35,397 bases of DNA from a virus: positions 1-35,397 of IMG/VR virus record IMGVR_UViG_3300023118_000020; one strand, 5' to 3'. Under the pieces are notes generated by a model that did not search any database, was not told the origin of the DNA, and was given only the letters and a program-made list of their open reading frames with translations. Position numbers and translations under genes: made by a program. This document shows, piece after piece, positions 6,728 through 34,047 of this stretch. How positions within the stretch are numbered: position 1 is the stretch's first letter; every line of letters begins with the position of its first letter.

Positions 6728-6800
6728 ATTGGCGTAGCTCAACTGGAAGAGCGCCGGTCTCCAAAACCGGAGGTTGTGGGTTCGAGTCCCACCGCCTTTG
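6728..6800 (+). tRNA. tRNA-Trp (anticodon CCA), imperfect acceptor stem
   Basis: The D-stem GCTC/GAGC, anticodon stem CCGGT/ACCGG with loop CTCCAAA (anticodon CCA), T-stem GTGGG/CCCAC and loop TTCGAGT are all perfect. The acceptor pairs ATTGGCG with CGCCTTT, leaving two T-T mismatches at the second and third positions. No CCA tail is encoded. It lies on the coding strand inside the head operon. The mismatches raise the possibility of a decaying or edited tRNA. Confidence 0.85.
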
Positions 6801-9689: not shown

Positions 9690-10025
9690 ATGGCTGATCA
9701 GTCCTTCGACGACGCACTCGACGGTCTGGAAGATCGCCTCATCGCCGCCACCACCATCGCGCTCGCCCGCGGGATGGAGCATGTGCGCGGCGTCGCAGCA
9801 CCCCTCACTCCCATCCAGTCCGGGCATCTCGTCGGATCCGCATCCGTCACGGTCAAGGGGCTCGTCGCCGAGCTCACCTACCCGGGCCCGTACGCGCGCA
9901 ACCAGCACTACAGCCTCGACTTCAAGCACGAACACGGGCAAGCCCTCTACCTCGAGCAGCCGATGATCACCGAAGCCGACAAGGTCATCCGGATCATGGC
10001 CGACACGCTCGGGGAGGAGTTTTGA
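9690..10025 (+). CDS. Neck / tail completion protein, HK97 gp10-like
   Basis: 111 aa, ATG with TAGGAGG upstream. The helix DGLEDRLIAATTIALARGM is followed by PIQSGHLVGSASV and YPGPYARNQHY, the usual HK97-gp10-like pattern (long helix, SGxL, then a G-PYA strand). Such proteins join the connector to the tail. The next gene starts inside its stop codon region. Confidence 0.75.
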   Translation: MADQSFDDALDGLEDRLIAATTIALARGMEHVRGVAAPLTPIQSGHLVGSASVTVKGLVAELTYPGPYARNQHYSLDFKHEHGQALYLEQPMITEADKVIRIMADTLGEEF

Positions 10026-10474
10026 GCACCACAGGCGATCTGGTCGACGGCATCGCCGGGATTATCTTCGCCGCAGGGCTCGCCACCTTCAACCCGAATG
10101 GTGTGTACCAGTCCAACCAGACGGGCATCTTCGAGAAGATCATGCCCGCCGCCCCCGACCGGGTCATTACTCTGACCGCCGTCTATCAAGGCGACGACGT
10201 CACCATGCCGCTCGGGCAGGTCATGGTGCAGGTGCGCGGCCGCGGCGTGCCGAACAAACCCCGCGATGTCGACGACCTCCTCGACCCAATCTTCAACATC
10301 CTCCACGGCGCCACCTACCTGACCTTCGGCAGCGTGACCGTCATCCAGATGAACCGCCGAGTCTCCACCCCCATGGGCATGGACGACTCAAAGCGGTGGG
10401 AACGCGTCGACCAGTACTACCTGGATGTCGACTTCCCCGCCACCACCAACCGCCCCGCACAGGGCTCCTGGTAA
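10022..10474 (+). CDS. Tail terminator
   Basis: 150 aa, TTG start at 10022 chosen because GGGGAGGAG lies just upstream and the start overlaps the previous TGA. The alpha/beta pattern with VQVRGRGVPNKPRDVDDLLD and a C-terminal beta strand fits minor capsid/tail terminator proteins that cap the tail tube and bind the connector. Position directly before the major tail protein agrees. Confidence 0.75.
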   Translation: MSTTGDLVDGIAGIIFAAGLATFNPNGVYQSNQTGIFEKIMPAAPDRVITLTAVYQGDDVTMPLGQVMVQVRGRGVPNKPRDVDDLLDPIFNILHGATYLTFGSVTVIQMNRRVSTPMGMDDSKRWERVDQYYLDVDFPATTNRPAQGSW

Positions 10475-10574
10475 CCATCCCCTCCACGAACCGCTGACAT
10501 CCCGCCAGCGACCCACCCCAAGCCGCCACGGCATGGGGCTCATCACCCTGCCCCAACGCCTATAGGAGGCAACA

Positions 10575-11279
10575 ATGCCCACCGCACTCGCCCGCCGATT
10601 CAAGGTCGACGTGTCCCTCAACGGGACCACGTGGCTGCCCTTCCGCGGCATCAACGATCTGAACCCGCCGATCACCCCGAACCTGCAGGCCGCCGACGAC
10701 TACGACTCCGACGGCTGGAACGCCTTCGAGAAGACCATGCAGTCGTGGGTTCTCACCATCAAGGCCCTCCGCAAGACGACCGCTGGTGTCTTCGACGCCG
10801 GCCAGGAGCTCGTCCGAGGCCAGCAGCTCGGATTCGGCGAGAACGCCCGCGTCTACGTCCGCTGGTACGACCGCAACGGCGCCCCCGAGGCGTACTCGGG
10901 CCGCGCGATCGTCGGCTGGGTGCCGTCGAAGACCGGTGTCGCCGACCTCGACGAGGTCACCGTCACCCTCACCGGTGATGGTGTGCTCTCCCCGATCACC
11001 AACCCCGGCACTGCGACCGTCGTCCCCGATGTCACCGCAGCCACCCCGTCGGGTGTCGCTGTCGGCGGCCAGGTCAGCATCAGCGGCTCCGGCTTCACCA
11101 GCACCATTCCGACCACCGGTGTGAAGTTCGGCGCGACGAACGCGACCAGCTGGGTCGTCATCTCCGACAACCTCATCGTCGCCGTCATGCCCACCGGTTC
11201 CGCCGGCGCCACGACGATCACGGTCACCAACAGCGTCGGCCCCGACGCCACGCCGCTCGCCTACACCCGCGGCGCGTAA
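10575..11279 (+). CDS. Major tail tube protein with C-terminal Ig-like (IPT/TIG) domain
   Basis: 234 aa, ATG with TAGGAGG upstream. Residues 1-145 form the tube domain (begins MPTALARRFKVDVSLNG). Residues about 150-230 read as an IPT/TIG Ig-like domain: a PSGVAVGGQVSISGSGF strand-turn followed by VKFGATNATSW and ITVTNSVG. Ig-like decorations on siphophage tail tubes are thought to bind weakly to cell-surface sugars. Synteny with the downstream chaperone pair is strong evidence for the tube role. Confidence 0.88.
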   Translation: MPTALARRFKVDVSLNGTTWLPFRGINDLNPPITPNLQAADDYDSDGWNAFEKTMQSWVLTIKALRKTTAGVFDAGQELVRGQQLGFGENARVYVRWYDRNGAPEAYSGRAIVGWVPSKTGVADLDEVTVTLTGDGVLSPITNPGTATVVPDVTAATPSGVAVGGQVSISGSGFTSTIPTTGVKFGATNATSWVVISDNLIVAVMPTGSAGATTITVTNSVGPDATPLAYTRGA

Positions 11280-24756: not shown

Positions 24757-24873
24757 GCAGTAGCCAACGACAGTCGAGCAGATCGGACTGAGCTCAACGC
24801 AGCTCAGAACGCCCTGAACAACCGGCTGAACGACTGGAACGACGACAACACGGCTTACAGCACTGCTCTCACT
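24757..24873 (+). repeat. DGR template repeat (TR)
   Basis: This 117-base segment aligns without gaps to three later segments (VR1-VR3). In all 72 observed differences the TR base is adenine; the 82 non-adenine positions are identical in every copy. It contains eight AAC codons in the target reading frame, the codon that gives the widest amino-acid choice under adenine mutagenesis without making stop codons. It is on the same strand as, and 122 bases upstream of, the reverse transcriptase. It lies within an open frame (24718-24999) whose TGA overlaps the RT start, but that frame has no ribosome site. A GGGC-GGGA-GCCC hairpin sits just upstream at 24737-24748. Confidence 0.97.
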
Positions 24874-24995
24874 CATCCTGTGACAAGAAGTCGCGGGCTC
24901 AGCCCGACCCCTCGGTCGAACATCCGACGCAAGACCTGCGCGGCTAGTAGAGCGGCAACCAGTCGCACCGAACACCGGGTACGACAGGACGACCT
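24874..24995 (+). ncRNA. Putative DGR spacer RNA between TR and RT
   Basis: 122 bases without a believable gene. In the Bordetella DGR the RNA between TR and RT is needed, with the RT, to prime cDNA synthesis, and its length there is similar. Here GGGC-TCA-GCCC can form a small hairpin near 24896-24906, and further GC-rich pairings are possible. The RNA role is inferred from position and family knowledge. Confidence 0.55.
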
Positions 24996-26015
24996 ATGAA
25001 GCGTCACGGATTCCTCTGGGATCAGATCGTCAGCTACGACAACCTCGCGCTCGCGCATCAGCGCGCACGCCGCGGGAAGTCGTACCAGCGGCAGATCGCT
25101 GACGTGGACGAGAACCTCCACGAGCGCATCGTCGACCTCTTGGTGACGATGGAACGCGGCGAGTACCGCACCAGCCCCTACCTCGAGCGGCTCATCTTCG
25201 AGCGCGGCAAGGAACGGCTGATCTACCGGCTGCCGTACTGGCCCGATCGCGTCGTCCACCACGCCATCTCCCAGGTGCTCGCCCCCATCTGGCGCGGGTC
25301 GATGATCCGGCACACCTACGCATCCATCCCCGGCCGTGGCATTCACGACGCAGCGGAGACTGTGCGCCGGCAGCTCCGCACAGACCCCGAAGGCACCCCC
25401 TACGCCCTCAAGATGGATGTGCGGAAGTTCTACCCCTCGATCCCCCACGACGGGCTGATGGAGGTCCTCGCGCACCAGATCAAGGACCGCCGAGTTCTCG
25501 GCCTGCTGGAAGAGATCGTGCGCTCCATCGACGTCACGGCACCCGGCGTCGGCGTGCCGATCGGCAACTACCTGTCACAGTGGTTCGCGAACATCTATCT
25601 CTCCCCGACCGATCACCGGTTCAAGGAGCACTACAAGGTGAAGTACTACCACCGCTACTGCGACGACATCGTGGCGCTCGGCCCCGACAAGCACGAGCTG
25701 CACCAGATCCGCGCGGACTTCACCACCTGGCTGACCGAGACCTACGGTGTCGACGTGAAGGGCAACTGGCAGGTGTTCCCCGTCGCCGACCGCGGCATCG
25801 ACTTCGTCGGCTACCGGATGTTCCCGGAGAAGACTCTGCTGCGGAAGGGCACGAAGAAGCGGATGGCGGCGAAGCTCTCCATGCCCGCCATCCAGCGATC
25901 CGCAGGTGCCGCTGCCGCCGCACTCCGCTCCGCGCCCGCGTACGACGGGTGGACATCGTTCGGGTCGACTCACGATCTGAGGGAAAAGCTGCTCTCGCCC
26001 GTGCTCAAGCTCTGA
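24996..26015 (+). CDS. Reverse transcriptase of a diversity-generating retroelement
   Basis: 339 aa, ATG after AGGACG. RT motifs in order: PDRVVHHA (83-90), motif A KMDVRKFYPSI (139-149), motif B GVPIGNYLSQWFANIYL (186-202), catalytic YCDD (221-224) and GIDFVGYRMF (267-276). Motif B has the SQ pair at 194-195 that marks DGR RTs; group II intron and retron enzymes usually have QG there. There is no maturase, HNH or other fused domain. The TR upstream and three adenine-mutated VRs downstream confirm the class. It would copy TR RNA into cDNA with errors opposite adenine. No Avd-like gene is seen nearby. Confidence 0.97.
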   Translation: MKRHGFLWDQIVSYDNLALAHQRARRGKSYQRQIADVDENLHERIVDLLVTMERGEYRTSPYLERLIFERGKERLIYRLPYWPDRVVHHAISQVLAPIWRGSMIRHTYASIPGRGIHDAAETVRRQLRTDPEGTPYALKMDVRKFYPSIPHDGLMEVLAHQIKDRRVLGLLEEIVRSIDVTAPGVGVPIGNYLSQWFANIYLSPTDHRFKEHYKVKYYHRYCDDIVALGPDKHELHQIRADFTTWLTETYGVDVKGNWQVFPVADRGIDFVGYRMFPEKTLLRKGTKKRMAAKLSMPAIQRSAGAAAAALRSAPAYDGWTSFGSTHDLREKLLSPVLKL

Positions 26016-26018
26016 GAC

Positions 26019-26037
26019 TTGATCGTCATCAGATCAA
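26019..26037 (+). terminator. Inverted repeat after the RT gene
   Basis: TTGATC and GATCAA form 6-base arms around a 7-base loop, three bases after the RT stop. The stem is weak and no T-run follows, so it is a possible terminator or protein site. Confidence 0.3.
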
Positions 26038-26084
26038 CTCCGGACCATTGATGCACTCGGTGATCGAGCGCCCCGCCTTCGCCG

Positions 26085-26321
26085 TGTAGGCACGCCTACA
26101 AAACCGGAGTGACACGCCGCAATTCACGACTAGGCTGATGGCCGCAATAAACAACCAAATCCGGCGTATTCATTGGATTTTGTGGGCTAGACGAGCAGGT
26201 GCGTTGCCGGGTTCGATTCCCGTCACTCGCTCTCCTGTAGGCCAATAGATACGGGGGTTTTATCCCGCGTATTAGACCGTGCCTACATTTTCGCCTACAC
26301 ATGTCAGTGGTCGCGCCTACA
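26085..26321 (+). other. attP region with six integrase arm-type sites
   Basis: The 7-base word GCCTACA occurs at 26094, 26281, 26293 and 26315, and its complement TGTAGGC at 26085 and 26236. The first pair forms a perfect inverted repeat with a two-base spacer. The six sites flank a tRNA-like core and lie directly upstream of the integrase gene, the layout of tyrosine-integrase attP sites with arm sites on both sides. Confidence 0.75.
26206..26235 (+). other. Putative attP core, tRNA 3'-end-like
   Basis: GGGTTCGATTCCC is a T-arm and loop, followed by GTCACTCGC, which fits the 3' acceptor strand of a tRNA. This resembles the 3' end of actinobacterial tRNA-Gly genes, where many phages integrate. 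The 5' side does not fold into a full tRNA, as expected for an attP that only copies the tRNA end. The tRNA identity is a guess. Confidence 0.6.
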
Positions 26322-26343
26322 TTTCGAACGTAGGAGGCAACAA

Positions 26344-27549
26344 ATGGCGAGTGTCACAGCCCGTCGAAATCGCGGCGGATCAGTCACGTGGCGCGTGCAG
26401 TTCCGCATCGACGGACGCATGGTCCAAGAAGGTTTCGCCACCGATCGCGCAGCTAACGACTTCGCCCGACTGGTCGACCGTGTCGGTGGCGAAGCAGCTC
26501 GAGCCACCCGCCAGAGACGCAATCTCTCTGAGTCACCCACGCTCGCCGACTTCACCGCCGCATACCTCGACCCGTCGAAGGGCCACCTGTCAGGTGTGAC
26601 CCCAGGGACACGCGACGGCTACCGGCAGATCGCCGACCGGTCGTTCCTCCAGGTTCTCGGCCCATATCCGATCGACGTCATCACGAAGCAGGACGTGGCC
26701 AGTTGGATCGCGTGGCAGGAAGATCAACCGTCGACCCGATACCCAGATCGGAAGATTGCAGCAAAGACGATCCGCAACTATCACGGGCTGCTTTCCGCGA
26801 TCATGGCTGCTGCCGTCGATGCCAAAGTCACAAGCGTCAACCCGGCAAAGGGCACGTCACTCACTCGAGGACGCAGGCAGGGCATATCCTTCCTCACCCG
26901 CGACGAATTCGAGACACTCCTGCACTTCATCCCCGCCCACTACAAACCGCTGGTGCTGATGCTCGCCGGCACAGGCATGCGGTGGGGCGAAGCTACAGCG
27001 ATCACGTGGTCAGATATTGACACCGCGCGAAACCCAGCGATGCTCACGATTGACAAGGCATGGCAGAAGGGCGCCAAGAACCGCGCTGTTCTCGGCCCAC
27101 CGAAGACGGACAAGGCGCATCGCACGATCTCCCTCTGGCCCGATCTTGTGGCAGCAGTTGGAGAGCGGCAAGCTGGCGGTGAGCTCGTGTTCAAGGGGCC
27201 GCAGAACGAATCGCGCGTATGGTCATATCGGTTCCATACCGCTGCGTGGGGGCCAGCTATCGACGCGGCGAACGACGAAGTGAAATGCGCCGCCATCGGG
27301 GCGAAGCCCATCGGTAAGCGACCACGCGTCCACGATCTGCGGCACAGTCACGCATCATGGCTCATCGCGGCCGGTGTTCCGCTCCCGTACATCCAGCACA
27401 GGCTGGGGCACGAGAACATCACGACCACGGTCGACCTTTACGGGCACATGCTCCCCGACATGCAATCGGCTACTGCCAACGCCATCGCAGAGGTCATGTC
27501 GGGGGTCTTCCCGGCGGCACCTCAGATGGCTCTCGAATCCAACCAATAG
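26344..27549 (+). CDS. int: Tyrosine integrase
   Basis: 401 aa, ATG with TAGGAGG upstream. The N-terminal arm-binding domain occupies about residues 1-60, the core-binding domain 65-170 and the catalytic domain 180-385. The catalytic residues are visible: R213 in GTGMRWGE, H330 and R333 in HDLRHSHASW, H356 in RLGHENI and nucleophile Y366 in TVDLYGHM. Lys near 255 (PPKTDKAHR) fits the beta-hairpin lysine. It would recombine attP with a host tRNA-linked attB. Its 3' end overlaps the convergent ImmA gene by 28 bases. Confidence 0.97.
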   Translation: MASVTARRNRGGSVTWRVQFRIDGRMVQEGFATDRAANDFARLVDRVGGEAARATRQRRNLSESPTLADFTAAYLDPSKGHLSGVTPGTRDGYRQIADRSFLQVLGPYPIDVITKQDVASWIAWQEDQPSTRYPDRKIAAKTIRNYHGLLSAIMAAAVDAKVTSVNPAKGTSLTRGRRQGISFLTRDEFETLLHFIPAHYKPLVLMLAGTGMRWGEATAITWSDIDTARNPAMLTIDKAWQKGAKNRAVLGPPKTDKAHRTISLWPDLVAAVGERQAGGELVFKGPQNESRVWSYRFHTAAWGPAIDAANDEVKCAAIGAKPIGKRPRVHDLRHSHASWLIAAGVPLPYIQHRLGHENITTTVDLYGHMLPDMQSATANAIAEVMSGVFPAAPQMALESNQ

Positions 27550-27902
27550 CGTTGGTAGTTCTCCACAACGCTCGGGGTTAGGCCAAGTTCTTCTGCGATG
27601 AACCAGACGTCAGAGCTGATTCGCTCAGCGGCTGCGTATGCATCGGGATCTACTAGCAACCATGCGCCTCGGCGATCAGCGTTGCGCTCATGCGGCCCGG
27701 AAGAGCAGGGGTGACGATAGTAGGCGTGCGCCAACTCGTGCGCCAAAGTCTCTTTCACCTCGGCCATCGGCATTCCCAACCGCAGATAAATGCGCGACTC
27801 GGCATCGTCGTACAGCCCCAAGAACGGATCGTCCAAGTGGGCTAGATGTACACGAACTCCGAGCCGTTTAGCTTCCTCCATCAGAGAAGCCATTGACGTC
27901 AT
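27522..27902 (-). CDS. ImmA/IrrE-type metallopeptidase
   Basis: 126 aa from ATG 27902, chosen because GGGGGAA lies six bases upstream; it overlaps the end of the repressor gene. Residues 55-59 are HELAH within ETLAHELAHAYYRH, the zinc motif of ImmA/IrrE peptidases. The C-terminal helix (AEELGLTPSVVENY) is typical for the family. Such enzymes cut phage or ICE repressors after DNA damage. Pairing with the upstream repressor on the same strand suggests an ImmR-ImmA-like induction switch. Confidence 0.88.
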   Translation of the reverse strand: MTSMASLMEEAKRLGVRVHLAHLDDPFLGLYDDAESRIYLRLGMPMAEVKETLAHELAHAYYRHPCSSGPHERNADRRGAWLLVDPDAYAAAERISSDVWFIAEELGLTPSVVENYQRYWLDSRAI

Positions 27903-28299
27903 TGGTGTTCCCCCGTTCGGCTCGCCGTCTGGCCGCAAGCCCGTACGCCCGGCTCGATACCTGACGAGTTGTCAGTGCATCGAGGACCTCAGCATCACTC
28001 ATCCCACTGACATCGAGATCGCTGCTCGGGTCAACCAACATGGCGAGTGCCAACAGCAGCGTCTCGGCGTCCTGGTTGGCCTCGGCCGCGGTCGCCTGTA
28101 TGACGTCAATTCCCAGAGGACGCACGCCGCGCCATTGCTCCGACACGTATGCCTGCGAACGATTCAAGCGCGCCGCGACCTGCTGCTGCGTAACACGCCG
28201 GTCTAAATCCTGCTCCAGGAGGCGTCGGAGCGCGCCGAATTCCGCTGCTACTCGCAGGTCGAATGGGCTCGCTTTGGGCAGATCGTTGTTTTTGACCAC
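27868..28299 (-). CDS. Immunity repressor, HTH XRE-like
   Basis: 143 aa, GTG at 28299. The helix-turn-helix lies at about residues 36-70 (VTQQQVAARLNRSQAYVSEQW). The C-terminal part is acidic, then Arg-rich, and probably mediates oligomerisation or ImmA recognition. The start lies 10 bases from an operator-like site and no ribosome site is visible, so a leaderless transcript that is self-controlled is likely. Divergence from the Cro-like gene completes a genetic switch. Confidence 0.85.
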   Translation of the reverse strand: MVKNNDLPKASPFDLRVAAEFGALRRLLEQDLDRRVTQQQVAARLNRSQAYVSEQWRGVRPLGIDVIQATAAEANQDAETLLLALAMLVDPSSDLDVSGMSDAEVLDALTTRQVSSRAYGLAARRRAERGNTNDVNGFSDGGS

Positions 28300-28309
28300 A
28301 TCGAGATGT

Positions 28310-28325
28310 TAACGCAAATGCGACA
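28310..28325. promoter_or_regulatory. Operator-like site near the repressor start
   Basis: TAACGCAAATGCGACA differs at three positions (28317, 28323 and 28324) from the perfect palindrome at 28352. The two lie 42 bases apart in the divergent promoter region. Confidence 0.65.
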
Positions 28326-28351
28326 CGCCGTGCTGTCCCCTCTTGTGGGGT

Positions 28352-28367
28352 TAACGCATATGCGTTA
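28352..28367. promoter_or_regulatory. Perfect 16-base operator palindrome at the Cro promoter
   Basis: TAACGCATATGCGTTA is fully self-complementary. It lies 10 bases before the Cro-like ATG and would overlap a -10 element (TTACAT), so binding would block early transcription. The spacing suggests a leaderless or nearly leaderless early message. Confidence 0.75.
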
Positions 28368-28377
28368 CATTCTGTAC

Positions 28378-28602
28378 ATGACATCAGCTAACGAAGACGT
28401 AGCAACCAGGGTTCGCGTGAACCTGGCCCTACGCAATGAACCCCAGGCGTGGCTGGCCTCGCAACTCGGATGGACAGAAGCTCGTCTCTCCGCCCGGATG
28501 GTGGGTAAGACGTCCTTCGCTTTCAGCGACGTGGTCGCCATTGCCACAGCGTTCGGGCTGACGACCACTGAGTTTCTTACCGGAGTGGCGGTGGCTGCAT
28601 GA
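28378..28602 (+). CDS. Cro-like HTH protein
   Basis: 74 aa from ATG 28378; the longer frame upstream runs through the operator and is not used. A helix-turn-helix is seen at about residues 23-57 (AWLASQLGWTEARLSARMVG, then SDVVAIATAFGL). It is divergent from the repressor across two operators, the classical Cro position. The TGA overlaps the ATG of the excisionase (ATGA). Confidence 0.82.
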   Translation: MTSANEDVATRVRVNLALRNEPQAWLASQLGWTEARLSARMVGKTSFAFSDVVAIATAFGLTTTEFLTGVAVAA

Positions 28603-28817
28603 GCGAACAAGCCGTCGACGTCGCGGGCATGGCACAGATATTGCATGTCTCCACCGGGACCGTCTATCGCAAGGCAGTCCTGGGCGAGATCCCCGGCTTC
28701 AAAATCGGCAATCGCTGGCGCTTCTACCCGTCCGTGGTGAAAGCCCACCAGTCGAAGGTGCCCGATCCATGGGCGTACTCCCCTGCCTCTCGCGCCGCTC
28801 GCCGACGGACCGCTTAA
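28599..28817 (+). CDS. Excisionase / MerR-type HTH protein
   Basis: 72 aa, ATG coupled to the Cro-like gene. The segment VAGMAQILHVSTGTVYRKAV, followed by EIPGFKIGNRWRFYPSVV, is the winged helix-turn-helix of the excisionase/HTH_17 family. It is basic at the C-terminus. It would bend attachment-site DNA and steer the integrase to excision; a transcriptional role is also possible. Confidence 0.85.
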   Translation: MSEQAVDVAGMAQILHVSTGTVYRKAVLGEIPGFKIGNRWRFYPSVVKAHQSKVPDPWAYSPASRAARRRTA

Positions 28818-28836
28818 CCGCGGATCCATTCCTTGT

Positions 28837-28863
28837 ATCGAAGTTCGCCCGAAGCCCTTCGAT
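28837..28863 (+). promoter_or_regulatory. Inverted repeat in the leader of the first DGR target
   Basis: ATCGAAG (28837-28843) pairs with CTTCGAT (28857-28863) around 13 bases that contain a nested TTC/GAA pairing. It sits in the 93-base gap before the target gene at 28911, the only sizeable gap in this operon. It may be a terminator/attenuator after the excisionase or an operator. Confidence 0.4.
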
Positions 28864-28910
28864 CCGATCCCCGCAACACCCATCCCCAGCACACAAGTAA
28901 GGGCACCGAC

Positions 28911-29597
28911 ATGACAACGACGTACTTCAAAGCAGTCAGACCCGATGGGTTCGACTTCCACACCCGCACCATCGACTACGGCACGGCTGCTCTGTCAGAG
29001 AGCAGGACGGTCACGCACCCGCGACCAACCATCAACGATTCCGACGCCTCCTTCTACTTCTCCGTCGCGACAGTCCCCACCGACTGCACCGGCTTCGCGT
29101 GGTCACGCGATGGCGGAGCCCGCCTCTTCGAGGTCGAGCCCACCGGTGACGTCTGGTCCCCACACGCCGACAGCATGCCCAACAAGCGAGCCACTACCGG
29201 CCTCCGCATCATCCGCGAACTGCCCGCCTGGATGCTCTTCGGCAACGAGGGCGAACGCATCATCTCGATCATCGAGCAGTTCGACCGCCTCGATCCCAGC
29301 ACTCGACAGCGCCTCGCAGGCGCATGGAACAGCTACTACTCCATCTGGTGGCCGACGTACTCGGCGGTGGCCAGCGACGGTCGGGCGGATCGGGCTGGGC
29401 TCGACGCGGCTCGGATCGCCCTGTACTACCGGCTGCTCGGCTGGCGCGACGACTACGCGGCTTACGGCGCTGCTCTCGCTTTGCTCCTGCGCCCGCTGGT
29501 CGGAACGACCTTCACCCAGGGCGAGTACGACGTCCTCTCCCGCCCGTGGCGATCCATCGTCGGCGAGATTCACCCCGACGACAAGGCGGTGAAGTGA
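28911..29597 (+). CDS. DGR target protein 1
   Basis: 228 aa from ATG 28911; the upstream frame extension is non-coding in style. The N-terminal domain (residues 3-120) is shared with targets 2 and 3: YFKAVRPDG.DF, then SVATVPTDCTGF, ARLFEVEPTG.VW.PH, PNKRA and RELPA..LFG. A helical linker leads to the variable region at residues 152-190, which is followed by a conserved tail ending PW-x-x-I-x-G-x-x-HPDD. There is no signal peptide or membrane segment, so a cytoplasmic or DNA-ejected protein is likely. I recall similar N-terminal domains in actinophages as an uncharacterised DUF. Function unknown. Confidence 0.93.
   Translation: MTTTYFKAVRPDGFDFHTRTIDYGTAALSESRTVTHPRPTINDSDASFYFSVATVPTDCTGFAWSRDGGARLFEVEPTGDVWSPHADSMPNKRATTGLRIIRELPAWMLFGNEGERIISIIEQFDRLDPSTRQRLAGAWNSYYSIWWPTYSAVASDGRADRAGLDAARIALYYRLLGWRDDYAAYGAALALLLRPLVGTTFTQGEYDVLSRPWRSIVGEIHPDDKAVK
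29364..29480 (+). repeat. DGR variable repeat 1 (VR1)
   Basis: 117 bases aligned gap-free to the TR, in frame. All 24 differences are at TR adenines (17 to G, 5 to T, 2 to C). Fixed Leu, Ala and Trp codons are unchanged; AAC codons have become Ser, Asp, Ile, Tyr, Leu or Arg. Similarity stops after base 29480. A GGTCG-GAA-CGACC hairpin lies 18 bases downstream but has no counterpart in VR2 or VR3. Confidence 0.97.
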
Positions 29598-29935
29598 TGC
29601 GCCAGGCACTCGAACTGATCGGCGACCTCCAGGCGCTGCGCGGCATCCTCCCCGAGTACGAGCTCGCCGAGCGTGCTCGGGCGATCCTCGAGCGCGCTGA
29701 CATGAAGCCCCTCGACCTCGCGGAGTTCCTCGCCGAGAAGGGTTTCACCGGTCCCCGCCTGATGCGCTCGGTCGGCACCTTCGGCAAGACCGTGAAGGAG
29801 GCGTACATCACCCACTACGGGTACGAGCCGATCAAGACGCACATCGTCATCAGCGGCGAGATCCGCCCGGTCTGCGCATACCTCGAGATCGACCGCGACC
29901 TGATCGAGGACGCGTTCGTGGAGTGGCTCTCGTGA
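29597..29935 (+). CDS. Hypothetical early protein coupled to target 1
   Basis: 112 aa, ATG sharing a base with the target-1 stop (TGATG). It is helical at first (LIGDLQALRGILPEYELAER), then has FLAEKGFTGPRLMRSVGTFG, which could be a small DNA-binding helix pair, and a C-terminal alpha/beta segment. It was considered as an Avd-type DGR accessory, but it lacks the basic four-helix character and is far from TR-RT. Function unknown. Confidence 0.75.
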   Translation: MRQALELIGDLQALRGILPEYELAERARAILERADMKPLDLAEFLAEKGFTGPRLMRSVGTFGKTVKEAYITHYGYEPIKTHIVISGEIRPVCAYLEIDRDLIEDAFVEWLS

Positions 29936-30012
29936 ACGAGTGGATCGGCGATGCCGCACTGATGGTCAGCGCCTTCGCGGTCGCGTGGCTCCTGATGGTG
30001 GTGTTCGCATGA
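29932..30012 (+). CDS. Single-pass membrane micropeptide
   Basis: 26 aa, GTG overlapping the previous TGA and TGA overlapping the next ATG. After a short acidic N-terminus almost the whole chain is one hydrophobic helix (ALMVSAFAVAWLLMVVFA). Double coupling and composition support a real small membrane peptide. Confidence 0.55.
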   Translation: MNEWIGDAALMVSAFAVAWLLMVVFA

Positions 30013-30377
30013 ACACCCCAGAGGTCATCACCGAACTGCGCGACGACGAGGTCTTCGTCTTCGGCTCCAACAAAGAGGGCCGTCACATTGCAGGTGCCGC
30101 GAGGGTCGCCGCCGATCATTTCGGCGCGGTTTGGGGAATCGGCGAGGGCATGGCCGGGAGCACGTACGCCATCCCCACCATGAGCGGTTTCACCGACATC
30201 GAGTTCGCTGTCGCCCGCTTCCTCTTCCACGCCTCCGTGAACGGCTCGAAGCGGTTCCTGGTCACGAAAATCGGCACCGGCATCGCCGGATACACCATCG
30301 CCGAGATCGCGCCTCTCTTCGTTGACGCACCCCCGAACGTCATCCTCCCCGTCGAGTTCGAGGAATTCGTCAAGTGA
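30009..30377 (+). CDS. Macro-domain-like phage protein (A1S_2505-type)
   Basis: 122 aa, ATG coupled to the micropeptide (ATGA). The strand VFVFGSNKEGRHIAGAARVA, the loop GIGEGMAGSTYAIPTM and the late strand RFLVTKIGTGIAGYTIAEIA are the marks of a small macro-domain-like family in phages, with Gly-rich loops placed to bind an ADP-ribose moiety. Role inferred: reading or removing ADP-ribose or handling NAD derivatives, possibly against host defence. It lies between two DGR target genes. Confidence 0.8.
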   Translation: MNTPEVITELRDDEVFVFGSNKEGRHIAGAARVAADHFGAVWGIGEGMAGSTYAIPTMSGFTDIEFAVARFLFHASVNGSKRFLVTKIGTGIAGYTIAEIAPLFVDAPPNVILPVEFEEFVK

Positions 30378-30460
30378 CCCGCCGTCGCCGCCTCAGCTTC
30401 ATCCCCGTCCCACTCCACACCACCATCCGCCGGGCGCTCGCCCTGCTGATCCTCCGCTGA
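30374..30460 (+). CDS. Tiny basic ORF
   Basis: 28 aa, GTG overlapping the previous TGA (GTGA). The Arg-rich start (MTRRRRLSF) is followed by a hydrophobic end (ALALLILR). Support comes only from coupling and its place between coupled genes. Confidence 0.4.
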   Translation: MTRRRRLSFIPVPLHTTIRRALALLILR

Positions 30461-30480
30461 CCTACCGAAGGGCATCTCAC

Positions 30481-31149
30481 ATGGTCAAGTACTTCAAGGC
30501 GGTCCGTCCCAACGGCCGCGACTTCCACTCCAACACCGTCGACTACGCCGCAGGTCTCACTACTGGCGAGCCGATCATCCACCCGAAGTCGAAGCGCGGC
30601 TCCGACGACGCCGCGCACTACATCTCCGTGTCGGTCGAACCGGGCGACTGCACCGGCTTCTCGTGGCCCGAGGGCGGCGCCCGACTGTTCGAGGTCAAAC
30701 CGGTCGGCAGAGCGTGGACCCCGCACAAGAACATGCTCCCGAACAAGCGAGCAGCGGTCGCGGTCAAGGTGATCCGCGAACTCCCCGCTCACCAGTTGTT
30801 CGGACCGCAGGGTGAGGCAGTGGTCGCCCTGGTCGAGACGTTTTCGACGCTGACCCGGAGCCAGCGAGACGCCATGTACCGCGCGCGCTCTGATCAGTGG
30901 TGGGACGCCTACGCGGTGGCCGACGACAGTCGGGCGGCTCGGGCTGAGCTCGGCGCGGCTCGGGGCGCCCTGCACTACCGGCTGTACGGCTGGCGCGACG
31001 GCCGCACGGCTTGCGGCGCTGCTCTCGCTGTCCTGTTGCGCCACACGATCGGCGCGGACGGCTTCGAGCAGAAGCACTACGACGCACTGGTCGCCCCGTG
31101 GGTGAAGATCACCGGCCAGAAGGCCCACCCGGAAGACCTCGTCTTCTGA
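30481..31149 (+). CDS. DGR target protein 2
   Basis: 222 aa, ATG 30481 with GAAGGG upstream. It is a paralogue of targets 1 and 3: it shares YFKAVRPNGRDFHS, DCTGFSWPEGGARLFEVKP, LPNKRA, RELPAHQLFGPQGE and a C-terminal PWVKITGQKAHPEDL. The variable region is at residues 145-183. It includes a Tyr-to-Cys change (TAC to TGC), again at an adenine. The downstream junction TGATGCGCCAGGCA is identical to that behind target 1, which points to duplication of the gene with its flank. Cytoplasmic by sequence; partner unknown. Confidence 0.93.
   Translation: MVKYFKAVRPNGRDFHSNTVDYAAGLTTGEPIIHPKSKRGSDDAAHYISVSVEPGDCTGFSWPEGGARLFEVKPVGRAWTPHKNMLPNKRAAVAVKVIRELPAHQLFGPQGEAVVALVETFSTLTRSQRDAMYRARSDQWWDAYAVADDSRAARAELGAARGALHYRLYGWRDGRTACGAALAVLLRHTIGADGFEQKHYDALVAPWVKITGQKAHPEDLVF
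30913..31029 (+). repeat. DGR variable repeat 2 (VR2)
   Basis: Gap-free alignment to the TR with 26 differences, all at TR adenines. Four AAC codons have both adenines replaced (two GGC, two CGC). It retains the TR bases AGT and ACG that VR1 and VR3 have changed, so it was not simply copied from them. In frame in target 2. Confidence 0.97.
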
Positions 31150-31262
31150 TGCGCCAGGCAGCCATCTACATCCTCGTCGCAGCCCTCGCGCTGGCGACCT
31201 TCCCGCTGCTCGCGCAGCACGACAGCCCCCACTCTTCGATCTCGACATTGGACCGACCATGA
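31149..31262 (+). CDS. Small membrane or secreted peptide coupled to target 2
   Basis: 37 aa, ATG sharing a base with the target-2 stop (TGATG) and ending over the next ATG. Residues 4-23 form one hydrophobic helix (AAIYILVAALALATFPLLA), and the tail is polar. It could be a signal-anchor micropeptide. Its first 13 bases match the start of the ORF behind target 1. Confidence 0.55.
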   Translation: MRQAAIYILVAALALATFPLLAQHDSPHSSISTLDRP

Positions 31263-32116
31263 CTGAACTCTTCACCGTCGTAGACGACGGCACCAACCGC
31301 CCTAGGTGGCTCGCCGGCCGCCAGGGTGGCGTCACCGCCACTGACATCTCGAGACTCGCGAGAGGCGGGGCAGGAACGTGGGCCGCGGTCCGCGCCGAGA
31401 AGGAAGGACGCGGTCGCGACTTCAAGAACGCGGCCATGCAGCACGGCATCGACCGGGAGAAGGTCATCGCGGAGTACGCCCGCGCATCGTTCGGCCTCGT
31501 CCCGTCGAGCGCACTGCTCGCCGCTATCGACGAGCCGCGTTACCTCGCAACACCCGACGGGTTGAGCGAGACGGAGACCGGCGAGTACAAGACCACCATC
31601 CACGACTGGCCCACCCTCCTCGACGCACCGGCCCGCTACCTCGATCAGATGCTCTGGCAGATGCGCGTCACCGGTCGCCGCAAGGCGCGTCTGGTGTTCG
31701 AACCGCATGACAACGGGGTCCCGCTCTACCCGTTCCCTCGTCATTTCGAGTTCGCCTATGACGAATCCCGAGTCACTGAGCTCGAGGCCGTAGCGCAGGA
31801 GTTCCTCGCCGGTGGTGAAGCGGACGAGAACGCCGCGGCACTGGATGTCCTCCTCTCCGCACGAGTGGAGGCGAAGGAAACGGCGGACGCTGCTACCGCT
31901 CAGGTCTCCTTGATCGACGAGCAGATCCGCGAACTGCTCGGCGGGAAGCCGACGAAGTTCGAAGGCTCCCTCGCGAACCTCACCCTCAGCGCACCGACCA
32001 CGCGGTCGGCTTTCGACTCGACCGCGTTCAAGGCTGCCCAGCCTGACGTCTATCAGCAGTTCGTGAAGTCGTCGCCTGTCACTCCCCGCCTCACCATCAC
32101 CACCAGGAGCAACTGA
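31259..32116 (+). CDS. YqaJ-type phage exonuclease
   Basis: 285 aa, ATG coupled to the preceding peptide. The PD-(D/E)xK core is visible as D100 (LATPDGL), E109 and K111 in GEYKTT, and the downstream Gln in MLWQMRVTG, as in YqaJ/lambda-exonuclease proteins; GVTATDIS is the early motif. It would resect double-stranded ends to give 3' overhangs for the annealing protein encoded next. The C-terminal helices are charged and may contact its partner. Confidence 0.9.
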   Translation: MTELFTVVDDGTNRPRWLAGRQGGVTATDISRLARGGAGTWAAVRAEKEGRGRDFKNAAMQHGIDREKVIAEYARASFGLVPSSALLAAIDEPRYLATPDGLSETETGEYKTTIHDWPTLLDAPARYLDQMLWQMRVTGRRKARLVFEPHDNGVPLYPFPRHFEFAYDESRVTELEAVAQEFLAGGEADENAAALDVLLSARVEAKETADAATAQVSLIDEQIRELLGGKPTKFEGSLANLTLSAPTTRSAFDSTAFKAAQPDVYQQFVKSSPVTPRLTITTRSN

Positions 32117-32742
32117 TGTCCGTCGATCTCGATTCCTACAACACCGTCGCCGAGCGCATCGTCGAGTTCCTGGAGAAGTACCCGACCGGGTCTCTGCAGC
32201 GGGTGGGCGAGCTCCAGTTCGTGTCCTATGCGGGTGCCGACTGGGTCATCTACACCGCTGCCGCCTACCGCACTCCTGACGATCTCCGCCCGGGGTATGG
32301 CACCGCGTGGGAGCGCGTACCCGGAACGACGAACTTCACCAAAGGCAGCGAGATCCAGAACGCCGAGACCTCGGCGTGGGGTAGAGCGATCATCGCTATC
32401 GGTGCGGCGGACACCCGCAAGGGCATCGCGTCATCGGAAGAGGTGAAACTCGCCATCGCCCGGCAGGAGGCGTTGCCGCCTCGCGAGTGGGTGAAGGAGG
32501 CGGAGAAGAAGAGCACGGCGGACGAAGTGCTCTCTGTGTGGCGTGAAGCGAAGACCAAGGGTGCGGCGGTGGCTGTGCTCGATCAGATCGCCACCCTCGG
32601 CCTCCAGCGACGGCAGATGGAAGAGGCCGCCACCGCGAACCCGACCACCGGCGAGGTCATCGATCCTGCCGCACCGACGGACCCGAACTGGAACGTCACC
32701 ACGATCGGCACCCCGGCACCGGAGGGTGGTGACGCAGCGTGA
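32116..32742 (+). CDS. Single-strand annealing protein, ERF-like
   Basis: 208 aa, ATG sharing a base with the exonuclease stop (TGATG). WVIYTAAAYRTPDD, then FTKGSEIQNAETSAWGRAII and AADTRKGIASSEEV match the central pattern of ERF-type annealing proteins of actinophages (E-T-S-A-x-G-R-A, then ..KGIAS-x-E-E). The C-terminus is low-complexity and acidic. Together with the exonuclease it forms a two-component recombination system for replication and end repair. Confidence 0.85.
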   Translation: MSVDLDSYNTVAERIVEFLEKYPTGSLQRVGELQFVSYAGADWVIYTAAAYRTPDDLRPGYGTAWERVPGTTNFTKGSEIQNAETSAWGRAIIAIGAADTRKGIASSEEVKLAIARQEALPPREWVKEAEKKSTADEVLSVWREAKTKGAAVAVLDQIATLGLQRRQMEEAATANPTTGEVIDPAAPTDPNWNVTTIGTPAPEGGDAA

Positions 32743-32894
32743 CTCACAACGTGACGATGGCCATCCATCGGGACAGCATCGAAGCGATCTGCTCCTGCGG
32801 CGCGGGAACTGAATCGCAGGGTCTGGACGAGTCCTCCCGTCTGTCGGTCGATGCCTGGATGAAGAACCACCGGGCCCAGGCGGTGGCGGCATGA
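32739..32894 (+). CDS. Small protein with CxC motif
   Basis: 51 aa, GTG overlapping the previous TGA and ending over the next ATG. ICSCGAGTESQG resembles half of a zinc knuckle, and a WMKNHRAQA helix follows. Similar 50-residue proteins with one CSCG are frequent in actinophage early operons. Function unknown. Confidence 0.65.
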   Translation: MTHNVTMAIHRDSIEAICSCGAGTESQGLDESSRLSVDAWMKNHRAQAVAA

Positions 32895-33355
32895 CCGACT
32901 CCCTCTCCCCCGAGATCGTGGAACGTCTCCGCGACATCGGCCTGGACGCCCCCGACCCGAACGACCAGCTGCACCGCAAGCTCGTCGCCACCCTCCGCCG
33001 CACCCAGGGCCTTTCCCTCGGCGCGCAGATCGTCGCGATGAAGTTCGACTTCAACTGGGAACTCCGGTCGGCGGGCGAGGTGTTCGCCCGTTCGAAGACG
33101 GACTACGAGCACCACATCGACAAGACGAAAGCCGCGCTGATGCTCGGCGACGGTCACTCCGGCGTGAAGGCCGACGCGATCGCCAACGGTTCCGACGAGG
33201 CCTACCGCCTCCTCCTGAACTACCGCCTTGCGGAGCAGCGCGAACGTGCCCTCCGCAAGTTCCTCGACACCCTCGACAACCGCGTGGAGGTGTGGCGCTC
33301 CGAGAACGCGAACGAGCGCCGCGCCGATGCGTACACCCCACCCGACCACGCGTGA
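32891..33355 (+). CDS. Hypothetical early protein, helical
   Basis: 154 aa, ATG coupled (ATGA). Almost fully helical: ERLRDIGLDAPDPNDQLHRK, then FARSKTDYEHHIDKTKAALM and LAEQRERALRKFLDTLDNRV. Charge is mixed. The pattern fits small actinophage replication-associated proteins of unknown role. It was considered as an Avd-like accessory because of size and helices, but it lacks the strongly basic surface expected. Confidence 0.75.
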   Translation: MTDSLSPEIVERLRDIGLDAPDPNDQLHRKLVATLRRTQGLSLGAQIVAMKFDFNWELRSAGEVFARSKTDYEHHIDKTKAALMLGDGHSGVKADAIANGSDEAYRLLLNYRLAEQRERALRKFLDTLDNRVEVWRSENANERRADAYTPPDHA

Positions 33356-33366
33356 AAGGCATCCCC

Positions 33367-34047
33367 ATGACCACGTATTTCAAAGCCACCCGCCCCGACG
33401 GGACTGACTTCTACAGCGGCAAGATCAGCTACCTCCAGGCACTGGAGAACGACACCCTGGTGCTGCATCCACTGCCCCTCCGCCCGGGTGCCACACAGGC
33501 GATGGGTTACCTCTCCGTCGCAACTGTCCCCACTGACTGCACGGGCTTCACCTGGCCCGCGCGCCTATTCGAGGTGGAGGCCCCGGGCGACGTGTGGACC
33601 CCGCACAGTGGCGATCTCCCGAACAAGCGTGCGACGACCCAGATCCGTGTCCTCCGTGAGCTCCCCGCCCATCAGTTGTTCGGCCCGCAGGGTGAGCAGT
33701 GCATTGCGATCATCGACGCGACCGCGGAACTCGACGATGAGACGAAGACTGCACTGAGGGAAGCCCGCACCGACGAGTGGTACGACGCCTACGACCGAGT
33801 GTGGCAGGTGGCCGACGACGGTCGGGCGGATCGGTCTGAGCTCGACGCGGCTCGGGACGCCCTGGACGACCGGCTGGGCGGCTGGGACGACGGCTACTCG
33901 GCTTACGGCGCTGCTCTCGCTGTCCTGACCCGGCACCTCACGGGGGAAGTCACCGCGGCGGACTACGCCGAGGTCACCCGCCCGTGGCGTGAACTCGTCG
34001 GCGCTGTCCACCCGGACGACACCCTTCCCGCGAAGGCGGCGTACTGA
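33367..34047 (+). CDS. DGR target protein 3
   Basis: 226 aa, ATG 33367 with GAAAGG upstream. It is a paralogue of targets 1 and 2: YFKATRPDGTDFYSG, VPTDCTGFTW, ARLFEVEAPGDVWTPH, LPNKRATT, RELPAHQLFGPQGE and PWRELVGAVHPDD. The N-terminal domain lacks the short insert before ARLFEV found in the others. The variable region is at residues 148-185. It is coupled to a two-helix membrane protein downstream. The surrounding genes are DNA-metabolism genes, not virion genes. Confidence 0.93.
   Translation: MTTYFKATRPDGTDFYSGKISYLQALENDTLVLHPLPLRPGATQAMGYLSVATVPTDCTGFTWPARLFEVEAPGDVWTPHSGDLPNKRATTQIRVLRELPAHQLFGPQGEQCIAIIDATAELDDETKTALREARTDEWYDAYDRVWQVADDGRADRSELDAARDALDDRLGGWDDGYSAYGAALAVLTRHLTGEVTAADYAEVTRPWRELVGAVHPDDTLPAKAAY
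33808..33921 (+). repeat. DGR variable repeat 3 (VR3)
   Basis: 114 bases aligned gap-free to the TR from its second codon; the first TR codon is not matched here. All 22 differences are at TR adenines (A to G or T). Most AAC codons have become GAC, so this copy is very acidic compared with VR1 and VR2. Confidence 0.97.

Follow-up and report, generated by a model that had tools for sequence, protein, structure and literature searches.

The window analysed here, the whole 35,397-nt stretch of IMG/VR virus record IMGVR_UViG_3300023118_000020 (positions 1 to 35,397), carries a diversity-generating retroelement (DGR) in which a template repeat (TR) and an adjacent reverse transcriptase (RT) are followed at a distance by three target genes, each containing a variable repeat (VR). 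The following features make up this system.

24757..24873, plus strand: TR, 117 positions with 35 adenines and 82 other bases
24858..24873, plus strand: candidate initiation of mutagenic homing element (IMH*), the last 16 nt of the TR; a sequence pattern with inferred role
24996..26015, plus strand: DGR RT of 339 aa (Pfam RVT_1, 1.3e-16; phrog_1423, 9e-115)
28911..29597, plus strand: target gene 1, phrog_8332 protein of 228 aa (phrog_8332, 2e-48; model pLDDT 92)
29364..29480, plus strand: VR1, residues 152-190 of target 1; 24 differences from the TR, all at TR adenines
30481..31149, plus strand: target gene 2, phrog_8332 protein of 222 aa (phrog_8332, 2e-47)
30913..31029, plus strand: VR2, inside target 2; 26 differences from the TR, all at TR adenines
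33367..34047, plus strand: target gene 3, phrog_8332 protein of 226 aa (phrog_8332, 4e-54; model pLDDT 85)
33807..33921, plus strand: VR3, 115 nt, inside target 3; 23 differences from the TR, all at TR adenines

The alignments of the TR with the three VRs are gap-free, and 73 of 73 differences fall on TR adenines, as established by a recount and by an exhaustive scan of both strands of the window in which the TR adenine was treated as a wildcard. A first-pass annotation of this DNA had counted 24, 26 and 22 differences, all at the 35 TR adenines and none at the 82 other TR positions. The computer recount agrees, apart from VR3, which had been placed at 33808-33921; this segment does show 22 differences but is one base short, 33807-33921 having 23. 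The scan returned exactly three TR partners on the plus strand and zero on the minus strand of the window. Control scans of the plus strand with C or T as wildcard gave zero matches, and the one with G recovered only pieces of the same TR/VR pairs, reversed. The further claim that chance cannot place 72 of 72 differences at adenines is borne out by a p-value of ~2e-38 for differences distributed randomly over the 117 positions. Likewise, ordinary divergence could be ruled out as proposed, since among the paralogues of the window 80 of 80 non-adenine VR sites are identical, compared to 28-48% identity in the 60-bp flanks on either side. As judged from such sequence comparison, non-adenine sites locked beside diverged flanks are predicted by recurrent copying from a local template, whereas ordinary divergence does not predict them. 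In the reading frame of the targets, the TR comprises eight AAC codons, none of its codons can mutate to stop, and the VRs lie within open reading frames.

The RT open reading frame begins 122 nt past the TR on the same strand and bears the motifs IGNYLSQWFANIYL (SQ-type) and YRYCDDIV, in agreement with the first-pass annotation, which had noted an RT with the DGR SQ motif after the TR. Its closest solved relative by sequence is the RT of BPP-1 (8ub7, E 3e-45), and its relatives also come with TR/VR pairs; by these sequence features, 24996-26015 is a DGR-type RT. No consensus promoter or terminator was recognised at the TR, the TR-RT spacer gives a weak signal of RNA structure (z -1.7), and an Rfam scan gave no match besides tRNA. 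The VRs start 3.3-7.8 kb past the RT.

For evaluating activity in nature, two IMG/VR contigs with orthologues of the early region, L073 and L074, were compared. In the VR2 gene, window and L074 differ at 19 of 35 adenine sites versus 22 of 634 other sites (Fisher p 1.9e-16). For VR1, 16 of 35 adenine and 1 of 82 non-adenine sites differ from L074, and 11 of 35 and 0 of 82, respectively, from L073, compared to about 16-17% of sites in the rest of the VR1 genes (L074 and L073; p 2e-5 and 3e-6). A T-to-G change at TR position 48 (T48G) is private to L074 and common to both its VRs. From this indirect evidence, obtained with the TRs of the relatives unseen, the DGR is considered to have been active in nature.

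The bases found at adenine sites depend on the neighbouring base. Of the adenines that precede G, 94% appear as G in the VRs studied here (n=53), compared to 87% across 55 relative pairs (n=199; loci L002-L071). Of those that precede C, 0 of 102 appear as C here and 4% in the relatives. Several adenine sites are G in all six VRs. In kind, such an effect has precedent, as the BPP-1 RT (bRT) is known for a neighbour dependence in which NAC favours G misincorporation, i.e., C in the VR (PMC12875486). The profile at A before C found here is unlike that of bRT, and this RT group may hence differ in detail. The effect is suggestive only, because selection filters natural VRs and the six compared are related to each other. 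A template-dislocation model, in which the new base equals the neighbouring template base, was rejected as a general rule, since no adenine preceding C was changed to C and few adenines preceding T were changed to T. Over the terminal 16 nt of the TR, each of the six VRs departs from the template by the same three A-to-G changes, making the distal TR/VR end a candidate for IMH*/IMH.

The always-G sites could also be taken as the mark of a decayed DGR, whose VRs were diversified in the past and which is now inactive, as could the fact that neither an Avd gene was found in the window nor a promoter recognised at the TR. Such decay is unlikely, as the RT open reading frame is undisrupted, roughly one third to one half of the adenine sites vary between orthologues whose adjoining sequence is similar, and the always-G sites fit the neighbour-base effect also seen in relatives.

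The phrog_8332 profile covers most of each target protein (E 2e-47 to 4e-54), and the three targets are paralogues encoded in a region with HTH_17 and RecE-like genes. Their N-terminal domain scores 21 bits against DUF7666 (PF24703), which is under the Pfam cut-off of 27, and the predicted fold matches a DUF7666 protein (E 4.6e-5). Hence, the targets appear to be related to DUF7666 although not filed as members; a literature search found no paper mentioning this domain. In an AlphaFold2 model of target 1 built on 34 sequences (pLDDT 92, pTM 0.88), helices make up most of the 39-residue VR (residues 152-190; local pLDDT 80-93). The AAC codons in and at the end of the predicted central helix lie on one face (R 0.83), with p-values of 0.006 for the helix of model 1 and, for model 2, of 0.0025 with one residue added and 0.03 with exact limits. 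An ADP-ribosyltransferase (Arr) fold of the N-terminal domain, suggested at E 0.14 with model 1, was dismissed, as it was absent from the top 50 matches of the better model and a profile search was negative.

Phage DGRs usually serve receptor recognition (PMC10743442, PMC8144416), and the inspected targets of RT relatives look lectin-like. An ordinary phage DGR with virion or tail targets, the VR residing in an unrecognised variant of the C-type lectin fold, would be in line with this. However, two models place the VR in helices, and a PDB fold search gave no significant match and no lectin among the 50 best, predicting that the VR is not in a C-type lectin fold. Moreover, the targets match phrog_8332 and are encoded in the vicinity of RecE-like genes rather than with the tail genes, rendering a tail-lectin system quite unlikely. 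This unusual nature of the targets had gone unremarked at first pass.

With good confidence, the locus is interpreted as an active DGR of a temperate phage that diversifies a predicted-helical part of DUF7666-like proteins, likely an intracellular binding surface. As in the biochemistry of BPP-1, the neighbouring RT would copy a TR transcript into cDNA, making errors at adenines. This cDNA would then take the place of the corresponding 115-117 nt in one or another of the three remote paralogues, which lie 4.5-8.9 kb downstream; the segment encodes the predicted-helical part of a small DUF7666-like protein. Copying from the TR into the VRs is strongly supported by the repeat comparison, and the biochemical steps are inferred by analogy. 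Since the mutable AAC codons share a single face of the predicted helix, every cycle would be expected to renew the side chains displayed there while the underlying scaffold stays conserved. Gene position and the lack of similarity to virion proteins suggest that the targets act inside the cell, most likely providing a variable protein-binding surface; a role of this surface directed, for example, at host defence or regulators of the host is possible but doubtful. Targeting of predicted-helical, recombination-gene-linked proteins and not of a lectin-type receptor-binding tip suggests a use of DGRs beyond host choice.

Several points weigh against this interpretation. No Avd gene was found in the window with PF22296 or PF05635, no hairpin conserved among the VR flanks was seen by eye, and IMH is a candidate based on a sequence pattern. 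Furthermore, the TR-RT region is absent from the L073 and L074 contigs, so that the TRs of these relatives could not be seen, the helical VR fold is a prediction and not an experimental result, and the intracellular role is deduced from gene position and missing virion similarity. Regarding Avd, which is present in BPP-1 and not in every DGR, the records of nine relatives, several of them fragments, also gave no match above the PF05635 cut-off. The element had been called complete at first pass, which holds as far as the TR, the RT and the three VRs within open reading frames are concerned; with Avd not found and IMH/IMH* only proposed, completeness is not fully established. A DGR-free origin of the pattern, by selection on duplicated genes or by ordinary gene conversion, would suit three paralogues, but is judged refuted by the exclusive placement of the 73 differences at TR adenines, the identity of all 80 non-adenine sites beside diverged flanks, the DGR-type RT adjoining the TR and the adenine-limited variation among orthologues.

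A profile scan identified 35 homologue loci in viral contigs, and nearly all homologues with readable proteins have AA(W/R)x runs in the region matching the VR. Neither the fetched homologue loci nor 23 whole records yielded a match to a DGR RT, although the same query matched 4 of 4 control records. Between L106 and L107 (about 9995-10690), with DNA 97-99% identical over long stretches, the number of repeats differs and the N-terminal 125 and C-terminal 55 residues are shared; in the near-identical pair L104 and L105, the repeat segment likewise differs, the divergence in such pairs being in length or content. Hence, two routes of varying this segment seem to exist in the family, repeat change in the homologues and a DGR here. 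A scan of a genome collection revealed one homologue, which is truncated (L081); in 85 genomes of the family of L081, all further matches were weak. It is tentatively proposed, as a conceivable scenario, that the DGR diversifies the helical surface of an intracellular anti-defence or regulator binder and that homologues vary the same surface by unrelated tandem-repeat change. Comparison with the tandem-repeat homologues would make the drivers of variation in the family testable. If the helical VR is true, a lectin scaffold is not required for DGR diversification and helical scaffolds are usable in nature, perhaps also in engineering.

The host context is probably that of a temperate phage of actinobacteria, as the head genes are similar at the DNA level to those of actinobacterial phages, the targets to proteins of Propionibacterium and Clavibacter phages, and RecE to that of Microbacterium phages. 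Two neighbouring genes lie beside the DGR components.

26344..27549, plus strand: tyrosine integrase beside the TR-RT module (Phage_integrase, 4e-20)
31259..32116, plus strand: RecE-like exonuclease directly after target gene 2 (YqaJ, 1e-8; phrog_434, 5e-30)

Where the window has the tyrosine integrase, L073 (118-1560) and L074 (105-1547) carry on the minus strand an open reading frame that by eye is serine recombinase-like, suggesting that the integration module has been exchanged. A phage non-structural protein of the A1S_2505 family is encoded between targets 1 and 2 (30000-30377) and is kept in L074. A tRNA-Trp gene (CCA anticodon) is located at 6728-6800, within the structural gene region.

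With the Mtd/Avd/bRT system of BPP-1, the element shares the TR upstream of the RT, the adenine-specific TR-to-VR differences and an AAC-rich TR. In contrast to BPP-1, it has three remote targets, none of them a tail protein, and no Avd was found; its VR is internal and predicted helical, whereas that of BPP-1 lies in a C-terminal C-type lectin. The IMG/VR phage DGRs with related RTs (L002-L071) resemble it in an RT 34-50% identical, a TR about 100-120 nt before the RT and adenine-only differences. However, most of these have the VR directly 5' of the TR (order VR-TR-RT), and their inspected targets show lectin-like GSRL/GSRF ends, as seen by eye without fold search, unlike the window targets. 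Besides its DGR RT, the record of L006 (G005) encodes at 977-1858 a second, divergent RT that is 32% identical to the window RT. In L020, a VR (2554-2627) in a small lectin-like target is about 7 kb apart from the TR (9821-9894), in addition to two near VRs; remote VRs are thus not unique to the window. According to the large survey of Roux et al. (2021; PMC8144416), annotated VR regions are systematically C-type lectins, typically C-terminal, and repeats were sought within 1 kb of the RT; a search of this kind would be expected to miss the system found here. A helical VR may nevertheless have earlier precedent, the minor target clusters of that survey and the subscription literature lying outside this comparison. 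Bacterial multi-target DGRs, such as that of Thiohalocapsa PB-PSB1, likewise have candidate remote targets diversified in trans, some of them predicted to be cytoplasmic and tied to conflict systems, but they are not phage-borne and their targets are C-type lectin domains (PMC10907252). Closest with respect to the targets are Propionibacterium Doucettevirus and Clavibacter phage CN1A, which encode homologous phrog_8332 proteins, with a copy in B22 and G4 standing directly before RecE. In contrast to the window, no DGR RT was found in their records, and AA(W/R)x repeats take the place of the VR.
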